From: Chloroflexota bacterium
Lineage (GTDB): Bacteria; Chloroflexota; UBA11872; VXNJ01
Assembly: GCA_009840625.1 (NCBI GenBank)
Contig: VXNJ01000001.1
Span: 434,001-498,000, forward strand
Length of the DNA: 64,000 nucleotides
Direction of reading: 5' to 3'
Part shown: piece by piece, positions 52,062 through 58,709 of the stretch
How positions within the stretch are numbered: the stretch's first letter is position 1
Layout of the letters: each line of letters starts with the position of its first letter
Made by a program: the position numbers and the translations under genes
The notes under the pieces: model-generated
Seen by the model: the letters and a program-made list of their open reading frames with translations, nothing else
Databases searched by the model: none
Told to the model about the DNA's origin: nothing

Positions 52062-54117
<2,056 letters not shown>

Positions 54118-54121
<4 letters not shown>

Positions 54122-55308
54122 GCAGGGTCGTTTACCTGCAGGCGGCGTCCGGGGCCGCCGGCGACATGTTCCTGGCCGCCCTGATCGACGCCGGTATGCC
54201 TTTCGGGATGCTTGAGGAACGCCTCCGCCGGCTCGCCCTCCCGCACTGGTCTATGCGGCCGCGAAGGGTGGTTCGCGGAGCAATCAGCGCCACCTGGCTG
54301 CAGGTGGAGACTATCCCCGAGCAGGTGCAACGCGGGCTCCCTGAGATCCGGGAACTTATCTGCGCCGCCGATCTCGGAACAGCGGTCGAATCCCGGGCGC
54401 TGGCGATGTTCGAGCAACTCGGGCACGCCGAAGCGGGAATTCACGGAGTCCCGCTGGAAAAGGTGCATTTTCACGAGGTCGGCGCCGCCGACGCCATCTT
54501 GGACCTGGTCGGGGCGGCGGTCGGAATCGAGTGGTTGGACGCCGCCGAGATCACGGTTTCGCCGATCAACGTCGGCTCCGGCCACGCGGACACCGCGCAC
54601 GGCCGCCTGCCGATTCCGGCGCCGGCCACGCTGGCCCTGGTTACTTCCGCCGGGGCACCGATCTATTCCGGTGATGAATCGATCGAATTGCTCACCCCCA
54701 CCGGAGCGGTGATTCTGACTTCGATCGCCGACCGGTTCGGCGCCATCCCCGCCATGCGGCCGACCGCCTACGGATACGGTGCCGGGTCGGCGAACCTGGT
54801 GATCCCCAACGTCCTGCGGGTCGTAATCGGCAACAACTTGACCGCCTCCGGGACCGATTCGGTGGTCGTTTTGGAAACCAACGTCGATGACGCCAGCGGC
54901 GAAGTACTGGGGTTCGCCGCCGAGCGCTGCCTGGCGGCCGGGGCGTTGGATGTCTGGATGGTCCCGATCCAGATGAAGAAGTTCCGCCCGGGCACCGCCC
55001 TGCACGTGATCTGCCAACCGGAAAAAGCCGCCGAAATTGAGAATGTGATATTCACGGAAACCGGCACGCTCGGAATCCGCCGCCGCTCGCTTGAGCGCCG
55101 GATCCTGGACCGCCGGGTGTGGACCGTGGAAACCCAGTTCGGATCGATCAGGATCAAATCGGCCGCCGATGCGAACCTGATTTCGCCGGAATATGAAGAT
55201 GTCCGCCGTGCCGCGCTAGCTCACCAGCGGCCGATTGCCGAGGTAATGCGGGCAGCCCGCCAGACCGCCGAGTCCACCGGCGAGAATGAACGGCACCCGG
55301 CCAGCTAA
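54118..55308 (+). CDS. larC: Nickel pincer cofactor biosynthesis protein LarC
   Basis: 396 residues, the CTP-dependent nickel insertase of NPN synthesis. GAAGDMFLAALIDAGMPF, EKVHFHEVGAADAILDLVGA and LVLETNVDDASGEVLG-type residues (VVLETNVDDAS) are all intact in one frame, without the frameshift that splits larC in L. plantarum. ATG 54118 overlaps larB (ATGA). larE (sulfur donor) and any larA are not in the window. Confidence 0.95.
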
Positions 55309-55320
55309 TTGAGACCATCC

Positions 55321-55755
55321 ATGCGTGACGCAGCCCGACCGGTCGGATCGTCGATCGGCAACCTATCAGGGGCTGAGATAAACCTCGAGTTTTCGGCAGC
55401 GCAACGCGTTAGGGCCGACACCTGCCGGGCCGGCTATTCGGCCATCGCCTTGACCCACGCCGACCGCGCCCAGCTTGAGCAATCAGCGAGCGGGGCCGTC
55501 ATCGCGGGCACCGCCCGTCTGGCCGATTCGGCTGCCATCGTGGCCTGCGGCGGTTCGGTGCGAATCGAGAACGGGGCCACCCCGGTAATCATCGGCGGGG
55601 CCGTCGAGGCCCAGCGGGTAATGGCTCTTGCCGTGGTTGCGGGCTCTGTGGAAGGCCACGTAAGTGCCTTGATGGGGACCCGCGCCGCGATCGCATTCGG
55701 AGTTGCGTTGGGCCTGAGCGCGCTGCTGGCACGCCTGCTGCGCCGCTGGATCTGA
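55321..55755 (+). CDS. Hypothetical protein with C-terminal membrane helix in the lar operon
   Basis: 144 residues from ATG 55321; a TTG at 55309, right after the larC stop, is possible. The middle has short beta-type repeats: ASGAVIAGTARL, SAAIVACGGSV, GATPVIIGGAV, MALAVVAGSVEG. They suggest a beta-helix or bactofilin-like fold, followed by a single helix (AFGVALGLSALLARLLRRWI) that ends in Arg/Trp/Ile. No known function. Confidence 0.65.
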   Translation: MRDAARPVGSSIGNLSGAEINLEFSAAQRVRADTCRAGYSAIALTHADRAQLEQSASGAVIAGTARLADSAAIVACGGSVRIENGATPVIIGGAVEAQRVMALAVVAGSVEGHVSALMGTRAAIAFGVALGLSALLARLLRRWI

Positions 55756-55784
55756 CCACCTCCGCCAGCGGCTGATTCGACCCG

Positions 55785-56474
55785 ATGTCCGCCCGCACGC
55801 GATCGGCCCGGTACCTGGGCCCGGCCCGACCAGCGGCCCAGCCTCTCCCCGACAAGGTATGTGGTGCGGAGGAAGCGGTCGCCCAGATCCAGGACGGCGA
55901 TACGGTCTTGGTTGGCGGGAGCGGTAGGCCCAGTTACCCCGCGGCCCTGATTGCGGCGCTGCTGGACTCACCGGCCGGCGACCTGACCATCATCTGCCTG
56001 GACGCCGACGACGATTGGGTAGCCCGACTGCTAGCGAGCGGGCGCTGTAGTCGTCTGCTCACCGGCGCCGCCGGACCAAAAATCCGCGAAGCGGCCGGTG
56101 AATCGGGGGTTGAGATCGTGCCCCCGGGAGTGCTGCTGGAGCGGCTCCGGGCCGCCGGCGCCGGCCTCGGCGGGGTCCTCGTTCCACCCGAGCTGGCAGG
56201 CGGGGGCGATTTTTCGCCCACGATGGTCGGCGAAAGGGAGTTTTCGGTCGCGCCGGCCCTGATCGGCAACGTGGCCCTGGTCAAGGCCTGGCGTGGCGAC
56301 CGATTCGGAAATCTTGCCTATCGCGGATCGCGCGCCGGATCCAACCCGGTGATGGCGACCGCGGCGCCGGTAGTGGTGGCATTGGTGGATGAGCTGTACG
56401 AGATCGGCGACATCGATCCCGCGGCGGTGGCCACACCCGGCGTGATCGTTCGCCACGTCGTCAAGGACGACTGA
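55785..56474 (+). CDS. CoA-transferase family subunit A-like protein
   Basis: 229 residues aligned to the family I (3-oxoacid CoA-transferase) alpha subunit: IQDGDTVLVGG, LLERLRAAGAGLGGVLVP, VALVKAWRGDRFGNLAYRG and HTPGI-type ATPGVIVRHVV. The glycine-rich loop after VGG is altered (SGRPSYPAAL instead of FGLCGIPE). It pairs with the next gene. It is 29 bp after the membrane hypothetical in the lar run. Confidence 0.8.
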   Translation: MSARTRSARYLGPARPAAQPLPDKVCGAEEAVAQIQDGDTVLVGGSGRPSYPAALIAALLDSPAGDLTIICLDADDDWVARLLASGRCSRLLTGAAGPKIREAAGESGVEIVPPGVLLERLRAAGAGLGGVLVPPELAGGGDFSPTMVGEREFSVAPALIGNVALVKAWRGDRFGNLAYRGSRAGSNPVMATAAPVVVALVDELYEIGDIDPAAVATPGVIVRHVVKDD

Positions 56475-56475
56475 C

Positions 56476-57189
56476 ATGGCCTGGTCGGCGCATGACATCG
56501 CCAAGGCGCTTGCGGATGAACTCGAAACCAATGACGTCGTCTATCTGGACGCCGGGTTGCCGCGCCTGGTGGGCGAGCATCTGGCGGGACGCGCGGTAAT
56601 CGCGGTTGACCGAAGCGGCCTGATCGGCCTGGGGCCGGCCCCACGTGGGCGCGAACGCGGGCTGCAGCCGGCCGACGGCGGCGAAACGGTTACCGTGATA
56701 TCCGGCGGCGCGATGGCCGGCCCCGTGCGAGCGGCGGCGATGCTGCGGCGCGGATGGATCGACGTCGGCGTGGTCGAAGCGAGTCAAGTCGACGCGGCCG
56801 GTGATCTGGCACCCTCGGACGATGAATCCGCTCCCGGCCACCTGCGGGAGATCGTATACGGAGTCGGCCGGCTCATAGCCTGCCTTCAGCACCAATTGCC
56901 GGACGGCAGCCCGGCGCTGAGCCAAAAATTGGCGCCGGACGAGCGCAATCTTTCGCCGGCGAACTGCGCTCTGGTGGTCACTGAACTCGGGGTTTTTCGG
57001 CCTACCGGCGACGGGTTCGAATTGCTAAAGTCGGCGTCGTCGGTGGACCTTGATGAATTGGCAAGCCGCACCGGTGCGCCGGTCTCGGACCAACGGGACC
57101 GTGGATCCGGGAGCCACGACCCCCAGCCGTCCGACGATCCAGAGGATGAGGACGATCTCCTCGCCAGCGCGACGCCACCGCCGGACTAA
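56476..57189 (+). CDS. CoA-transferase family subunit B-like protein lacking the catalytic Glu
   Basis: 237 residues. The family scaffold is clear (VYLDAGLPRLVGEHL, GLIGLGPAP, VISGGAMAGPV, IDVGVVEASQVDAAGDLA, CALVVTELGVFRP), but the position of the thioester-forming Glu (SENG in CtfB/ScoB) is D45-R46-S47-G48. An acidic C-terminal tail (about 200-237) is unusual. It cannot act as a standard CoA-transferase unless another residue replaces Glu. Its role is unknown. Confidence 0.78.
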   Translation: MAWSAHDIAKALADELETNDVVYLDAGLPRLVGEHLAGRAVIAVDRSGLIGLGPAPRGRERGLQPADGGETVTVISGGAMAGPVRAAAMLRRGWIDVGVVEASQVDAAGDLAPSDDESAPGHLREIVYGVGRLIACLQHQLPDGSPALSQKLAPDERNLSPANCALVVTELGVFRPTGDGFELLKSASSVDLDELASRTGAPVSDQRDRGSGSHDPQPSDDPEDEDDLLASATPPPD

Positions 57190-57195
57190 TTAAGG

Positions 57196-58209
57196 TCAGG
57201 CAAGCGGCAGCTCCACTCTGCAACCACCCTCGCTTGCCGAAATCTCGGCCGCTATGCAGGCATGGTGCGTGTTTACCGTCCCGGCGAGGTTCAATTCGGA
57301 ATCCGTTCCTTCGTCCAAACAGTCGAACAGGTGGCCCAGCTCGCCGGTGAAGGGGTGTGAAACTACATCGGCCGAATCGGGCCGCTCGACCGGAAATTCG
57401 ACGAATCCCTGAAGGCCCGGAAGCTGTCGCGAATAGAGGCGGTTGTTGCGGACCGATCCCTCGGTCCCCAGCAGGTCGACATCGAATTGGTAAGGCATAC
57501 GGGCCCCCAGCGACGCAGAGACTTTGCCGATTGCCCCGCTGGCAAGCTCGCACACGAATACGGTGGTGGACGGGTATTCGTGGGCCGTCCCGTCGCGGGT
57601 GGCCAGGGCCGAGAGGGCGGCGATATCGGAACCGGTGAAGAAGCGCAATGCATCCACGGCGTGGCAGCCCGCACACAGCAGCGCGTTGCCCCCGGCGGCC
57701 CGGGTCTTGGCCCACGCGAAACCGCTGTACCAGTCCCCGACTTCATGCCAGTAATTGATTTCGCCGTAGAAGATCCGCCCCAGAAGACCCTTATCTATCT
57801 GGGCACGGATCAGGTCAAACATCGGATTCCAGTGCAACACGAACCCGACCAGCGTGGTTACTCCGGCCGCAGCGACTGCCTGCACCGCCCGATCCAGCGA
57901 CTCGGTGTCCAGGGCGGCCGGCTTTTCGATCAATATGTGCTTGCCCGCTTGCGCCGCCAGAACCGTTTCGGAAGCGTGCAGGTCGTTTGGTGTGGCCAGT
58001 ACTACGACGTCCACCGCCGAATCGGCTAACAGATCTTCGATGCGCCCGTAGGCGGCCGCGTCAAGGCCGTTGTCGGCACAGAATCGGGATGCACTTTCAA
58101 CCGAGGATCCGCCCACTGCCACGACCCGGCAACGCGGATCGGACCGTGCCGCCTCAAGGTGGGCCGAAGCCACCCAGCCGGTTCCCTGAATCGCTACTCC
58201 GTAGATAAT
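57196..58209 (-). CDS. Gfo/Idh/MocA family oxidoreductase (non-standard start codon)
   Basis: About 337 residues. The Rossmann motif GVAIQGTGWVASAHLEAA is at the very N-terminus, and the catalytic EKP motif LIEKPAALDTES is intact, unlike the homologue at 35551-36594. AAGGNALLCAGCHAVDALRFF is the substrate-side helix with a His. No ATG/GTG/TTG fits: AAAGGAG (58220-58214) lies 4 and 7 bp upstream of ATT (58209) and ATC (58206), so an infC-like start is likely; upstream TTGs would give odd leaders. Confidence 0.82.
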   Translation of the reverse strand: MIYGVAIQGTGWVASAHLEAARSDPRCRVVAVGGSSVESASRFCADNGLDAAAYGRIEDLLADSAVDVVVLATPNDLHASETVLAAQAGKHILIEKPAALDTESLDRAVQAVAAAGVTTLVGFVLHWNPMFDLIRAQIDKGLLGRIFYGEINYWHEVGDWYSGFAWAKTRAAGGNALLCAGCHAVDALRFFTGSDIAALSALATRDGTAHEYPSTTVFVCELASGAIGKVSASLGARMPYQFDVDLLGTEGSVRNNRLYSRQLPGLQGFVEFPVERPDSADVVSHPFTGELGHLFDCLDEGTDSELNLAGTVNTHHACIAAEISASEGGCRVELPLA

Positions 58210-58274
58210 TACGCTCCTTTTTTCGCCATCCCGGATCGCTTCCGTCCCGGCATTCAAATTAAAGTTCAAGTGAT

Positions 58275-58709
58275 ATGCGCCGGGCCCTGGACCAAGCACT
58301 GATCGACTCCGCCGAGGACCCTCGCCTGGCGGACTGGCTGGCAATTCACGCCCCTGACCGGGCCATGGCGATTATGTCCCTGGCCGTGCACTGGATGGGT
58401 CGCGGCGGACGCTTGCGGATCCGGTCCAATTCGCTCGGGCTGGTGATTCCGCCGAGCGCGTCCGTGATCGGCGCCCGCCTGGTCTGCCCTGCCGCGCCGG
58501 AGAGGGATCCGTTCCTTGAATTCCTGCCCGGGCGGTTGCGGCGCAGCGTCCCTTCGCCGGACGATATCGAAGACTTCGTCGACAGCCTGGAGTCGTTCAG
58601 GGCCGCCGCCAATCGATCGGATACGAGCTGGCGATTCCCCGCCTGCACCGCCCCCCAAAAGCTGCAGATGGTGCTCGACGCGCTCGCCGATATGTGCTCG
58701 CGGCGATGA
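58275..58709 (+). CDS. Hypothetical protein coupled to an MFS transporter
   Basis: 144 residues, no family recognised. It begins MRRALDQALIDSAEDPRL, and the middle (RGGRLRIRSNSLGLVIPP, IGARLVCPAAPERDPFLEFLPGRLRR) looks basic with beta strands. The C-terminus is helical (DIEDFVDSLESF, LQMVLDALADMCSRR). Its TGA overlaps the transporter's ATG (ATGA). It starts 65 bp from the divergent oxidoreductase. Confidence 0.55.
   Translation: MRRALDQALIDSAEDPRLADWLAIHAPDRAMAIMSLAVHWMGRGGRLRIRSNSLGLVIPPSASVIGARLVCPAAPERDPFLEFLPGRLRRSVPSPDDIEDFVDSLESFRAAANRSDTSWRFPACTAPQKLQMVLDALADMCSRR

Follow-up and report, generated by a model that had tools for sequence, protein, structure and literature searches.

A pair of genes resembling the two subunits of a class I CoA-transferase stands at the end of an operon that opens with enolase and continues with larB and larC, and its beta-like subunit lacks the glutamate through which these enzymes act. 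The question raised by this locus is whether the pair still carries out CoA transfer and, if it does not, what it is kept for. The locus lies in the window, which is the whole stretch of 64,000 nucleotides of DNA from an uncultured member of the Chloroflexota analysed here. A first-pass annotation had proposed a binding or regulatory pseudoenzyme, or else a different acyl-transfer enzyme, linked to the use of the nickel-pincer cofactor. The pseudoenzyme part of that proposal is maintained below; the link to the cofactor is given up, and so is the condition, named there as a check, that such pairs always lack Glu.

The gene run and the family of the pair

The genes eno, larB, larC, that of a small transmembrane (TM) protein, and those of the alpha-like and beta-like subunits are open reading frames in the order and on the plus strand described by the first-pass annotation (Table 1). 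The span that it gave for the pair, 55309-57189, begins instead at the TM gene (55309/55321).

Table 1. Features of the eno-to-beta gene run and its flank (window coordinates).
Feature	Position	Strand	Remarks
eno (enolase)	52074..53375	+	opens the run, start codon TTG; TIGR01060 3e-192, above cut-off
larB	53372..54121	+	4-nt ATGA overlap with eno; NF033503 LarB 7.6e-79, above cut-off
larC	54118..55308	+	4-nt ATGA overlap with larB, ATG start; TIGR00299 and NF052512 above cut-off
small TM protein, predicted beta-solenoid and C-terminal membrane helix	55321..55755	+	alternative TTG start at 55309
alpha-like (AtoD/ScoA-type) CoA-transferase subunit	55785..56474	+	PF01144 (CoA_trans) 3.7e-31, TIGR02429 above cut-off
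alpha glycine loop (acetate pocket), residues 44-52	55914..55940	+	GGSGRPSYP versus GGFxxxGxP
beta-like (AtoA/ScoB-type) CoA-transferase subunit	56476..57189	+	starts 1 nt past the alpha stop; TIGR02428 1.5e-23
beta Arg46 codon	56611..56613	+	aligned with the catalytic Glu
beta Glu101 codon	56776..56778	+	Gly invariant in homologues; candidate relocated carboxylate
beta residues 121-126, GHLREI	56836..56853	+	replaces the GGAMDL external oxyanion loop
acidic C-terminal tail of beta	57100..57186	+	seen only in the window's family
Gfo/Idh/MocA-type oxidoreductase	57196-58344	minus	convergent with the eno-to-beta run

Both subunits are homologous to the profiles of class I (AtoDA/SCOT-type) CoA-transferases. 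In profile searches the alpha subunit scores 134 bits against TIGR02429, whose curated cut-off is 128.5, and the beta subunit 83 bits against TIGR02428, well below the cut-off of 243.6, as a clear but divergent B subunit. They are the sole PF01144 matches in the genome of the window. The pair shares with AtoDA/CtfAB (class I, PF01144; 5DBN, 9CSC) the two-gene alpha/beta layout and the family profile matches, and its fold is assigned to 3RRL, 5DBN and CtfAB with a Foldseek probability of 1.00. The PDB matches of beta are CtfB, AtoA and SCOT. The closest matches of both subunits are thus AtoDA, CtfAB and SCOT and not the glutaconate CoA-transferase branch, from which IpdA- and AibA-like chains give only weak matches, and these to alpha. 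Chance is no concern here, since the homology is strong and the loss of Glu is common to one related genus. The two subunits would presumably assemble into an alpha/beta heterodimer, the class I enzymes being alpha/beta heterotetramers. The monomer model of beta, built on a four-sequence alignment, is of moderate confidence (pLDDT 60.7); a scan of viral contigs for beta homologues that could deepen this alignment found none.

Loss of the active site

In class I enzymes the catalytic Glu forms the acyl anhydride and the CoA thioester, and a backbone Gly provides the oxyanion hole (PMC4876117). In CtfAB, the E46S and E46A substitutions abolish activity and E46D leaves only a weak hydrolase (PMC12400318). 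The roles of the alpha and beta positions discussed here are taken from these two studies.

As the first-pass annotation had noticed, the Glu of the SENG motif is absent from the window beta, where Arg46 (in DRSG) aligns with the catalytic Glu of CtfB (Glu46), AtoA and SCOT. For comparison, the 28 nearest Chloroflexota homologues inspected outside the window's family all carry Glu in this column. The same annotation was also right about the altered glycine loop of alpha, in which Ser occupies the place of the signature Phe that is present in 27 of the 28 homologues and in those sister genera that keep Glu. In CtfAB numbering, the acetate pocket of alpha shows the changes Phe24 to Ser, Asn50 to Leu and Gln98 to Pro, while in beta Asn22 is replaced by Tyr and the Gly of the oxyanion loop by His. 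This last change falls within GHLREI, the counterpart of the GGAMDL external oxyanion-hole loop, which from the alignment would be equivalent to the loop of AarC Gly388, whose oxyanion role is described in PMC4876117. The NWxx stretch ahead of it is deleted, so that the NWxxPG loop is also gone, and the Lys positions that bind the CoA phosphates are not retained in the pair. The Gln at the position of Gln105 is retained in beta. Beta Glu101 sits at a Gly that is invariant in the homologues, and Asp is found there in the second genus devoid of the catalytic Glu (G020).

The claim that beta keeps the whole family frame goes too far. Of 37 near-invariant positions 18 are changed, against 5 of 37 in each sister that keeps Glu; in G020 the changes amount to 24 of 37. 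Likewise, the GGAM cited as a family motif (beta residues 77-80) corresponds in the alignment to PGASFF, and the true GGAMDL loop is the one that reads GHLREI. A sequencing or assembly error behind Arg46 was ruled out, given that the whole set of loops is altered and that another genus also lacks Glu. Since neither Glu nor the oxyanion loop is in place, CoA transfer by the window pair would not be expected. Such pairs should not be annotated as 3-oxoacid CoA-transferases, as the above-cut-off score of alpha would prompt.

Distribution among related genomes

The class was sampled with 41 genomes, five of them from the family of the window and 19 from its sister family. A scan of named genomes with the window beta alone gave no match, and the loci were recovered instead with an alignment of the TM protein. 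In this group of Chloroflexota the eno-larB-larC-TM run is found across the class, whereas the CoA-transferase pair stands behind it in one family only, directly after the TM gene and at the end of the operon in all five genomes. The expected conservation of the neighbourhood in related genomes is thus confirmed, though within this five-genome family only.

The expectation that the pair always lacks Glu did not hold. At the same locus, the catalytic motif reads HSESG in G021 and HMENG in G023, with Glu kept, and VDRSG in the window (G000) and ICTNG in G020, where Thr replaces Glu. The orthologous pairs of G021 and G023 (records JAPOWW01 and JASLPR01) occupy the same locus as that of the window and share with it the order of the genes, their tight coupling and the acidic tail. 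They differ from it by having kept Glu (SESG, MENG) as well as most of the positions typical of the family. A family of pairs always devoid of Glu and tied to lar was therefore rejected, also because the pair is absent from the sister family. Every outside homologue inspected carries Glu, which makes its absence the derived state.

The betas of the family form one clade with support of 98/95 in a tree of four sequences, the G022 beta being cut by a contig end. Trees of three and four genes do not separate one loss of Glu from two (AU p about 0.5), and a ten-gene tree with missing data groups both Glu-less genera with support of 98/99; a single loss is plausible, not proven. Erosion is also found in members that keep Glu, for instance Asn22 to Ser in both G021 and G023 and Gln98 to Leu in G023. 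Some of it predates the loss of Glu, and such erosion makes the ancestral activity of the clade itself uncertain.

At a single locus there are four orthologous pairs, of which two carry the catalytic Glu and two lack it. They constitute a natural before-and-after set in which to test how a CoA-transferase becomes a pseudoenzyme or acquires another reaction. The open-access literature searched describes no protein of the AtoDA/SCOT branch that is devoid of Glu; the cases that it does describe belong to the glutaconate branch.

Two further PF01144 observations were made. G020 has an additional fused PF01144 protein (G020:C13:59333-60034, a 513-aa open frame), like those of families f3-f5; no protein of this type exists in the genome of the window. 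In another Chloroflexota family, a Glu-keeping pair (L144, 3488-6832; G120:C85) lies near a thiolase-like ORF and near a solenoid that resembles bactofilin and carries a membrane helix, an association that is possibly a coincidence.

A probable pseudoenzyme retained in the operon

The pair is probably a catalytically dead transferase that is kept as a binding, regulatory or structural heterodimer. The inactivity of the CtfAB E46S and E46A variants (PMC12400318) and the loss of further active-site positions in the window pair support this reading, which the first-pass annotation had already put forward. By its sequence the pair descends from the AtoDA-type acetate/acetoacetate CoA-transferases. 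A working enzyme of this type would have been added behind an already existing eno-larB-larC-TM operon in the common ancestor of the window's family. The window lineage has since lost the residues of Glu-thioester catalysis, together with the oxyanion loop and a large part of the acyl pocket. Class I CoA-transferase action would no longer be possible for the pair, which, still tightly coupled, would most likely serve in a complex with a binding, regulatory or structural function.

In both Glu-less pairs the frames are open and tightly coupled, although identity between the housekeeping proteins of the genomes is down to 46-69%. In a neutral simulation that ignored indels, only about 0.05% of beta frames remained open at 0.5 substitutions per site. 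The GC content of alpha and beta at the three codon positions resembles that of the neighbouring genes, and the G020 subunits score 154 bits (alpha, cut-off 128.5) and 74 bits (beta). That both pairs remain intact and coupled at such deep divergence argues for a retained function, though with less force should Glu have been lost recently and in each lineage separately.

Alternative explanations

The main rival to a pseudoenzyme is a neofunctionalised pair that would still bind a CoA thioester but catalyse hydrolysis, decarboxylation or a retro-aldol reaction, perhaps by means of Glu101 or another group. Precedents can be found among class I relatives that, like the window pair, have no beta Glu. 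The cholesterol ring hydrolase IpdAB has Gly in its place and shows no transferase activity, yet it opens the ring in a known acyl-CoA reaction (PMC5380842), and AibA/AibB, a 3-methylglutaconyl-CoA decarboxylase with a known substrate, has Cys56 (PMC7756340). However, both belong to the glutaconate CoA-transferase branch and not to that of AtoDA (PMC5380842, PMC7756340). An acidic residue has arisen at the same invariant Gly in each of the two lineages without Glu and could be a relocated catalytic group, and the Gln105 position is kept, but one acid among so many changed positions is within chance, and the oxyanion loop, the pocket residues and the phosphate-binding Lys positions have also gone. 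A new acyl-CoA activity is considered rather unlikely.

Slow decay, in which the pair lost its use in the window and G020 lineages and a degenerating remnant is carried along by the operon, is somewhat less likely. It would account for the great length of the beta branches (2.96 and 4.37 changes per site) and for the many near-invariant positions altered in both. Nevertheless, the two small genomes (2.3 and 1.9 Mb) are only distantly related and the genes are intact and start/stop coupled in both, codon-position GC is normal, and alpha lies above the family cut-off in both genera. Measured against housekeeping genes, the window beta branch stands at about 3-fold, in line with the values for the relatives that keep Glu (about 3- to 4-fold), with that of G020 higher.

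The pair might also act together with its neighbour. An acidic tail of about 30 residues closes the beta subunit in the four family members with a full-length beta (window, L037, L038 and L041), whether Glu is kept or not. In the window, the last 30 residues hold 10 D/E and one K/R, against a mean of 4.6 D/E in the 28 outside homologues, none of which has such a tail. The TM protein was found in 39 of the 41 class genomes, and its gene adjoins larC in every class locus examined whose flank reaches larC (window 55321-55755; L037-L049). Its model (pLDDT 76) has strands at a 15-residue period followed by a helix at 120-143. The constant companion of larC in the class is this predicted TM beta-solenoid and not the CoA-transferase pair. 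The protein has no Pfam match, and a search for a fold known in the PDB gave none under E 0.001, with only a weak resemblance to bactofilin. Distant relatives occur elsewhere in the phylum and do not adjoin larC in the loci checked. A more speculative proposal, and an improbable one, is that a new type of AtoDA-branch module binding acyl-CoA or carboxylate, or else an enzyme whose carboxylate has been relocated (Glu101/Asp), acts with the adjacent solenoid through the acidic tail and connects the Lar genes with central carbon metabolism (enolase).

A role of the pair connected with the synthesis of the nickel-pincer cofactor or with the product of LarA is very improbable, in spite of the fixed place of the pair behind larB-larC-TM in the five family genomes and the presence of larA and larE in the genome of the window, because all 19 sister-family genomes keep LarA and LarE and contain no PF01144 protein, and because a position at the operon end is what would be expected of a passenger insertion. 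In the class, LarA (Lar_N matches) is present in 40 of the 41 genomes and LarE above cut-off in 39; in the sister family larB-larC-TM occurs in nearly all genomes, and larB-larC wherever it was looked at. The pair does not co-occur with larB, larC and larE across genomes as a cofactor-synthesis gene would. It is not needed for the cofactor, and its place in the operon is at most that of an optional passenger. In many sister-family genomes a Gfo/Idh/MocA-type oxidoreductase gene, of the type that converges on the run in the window, is found directly 3' of the TM gene.
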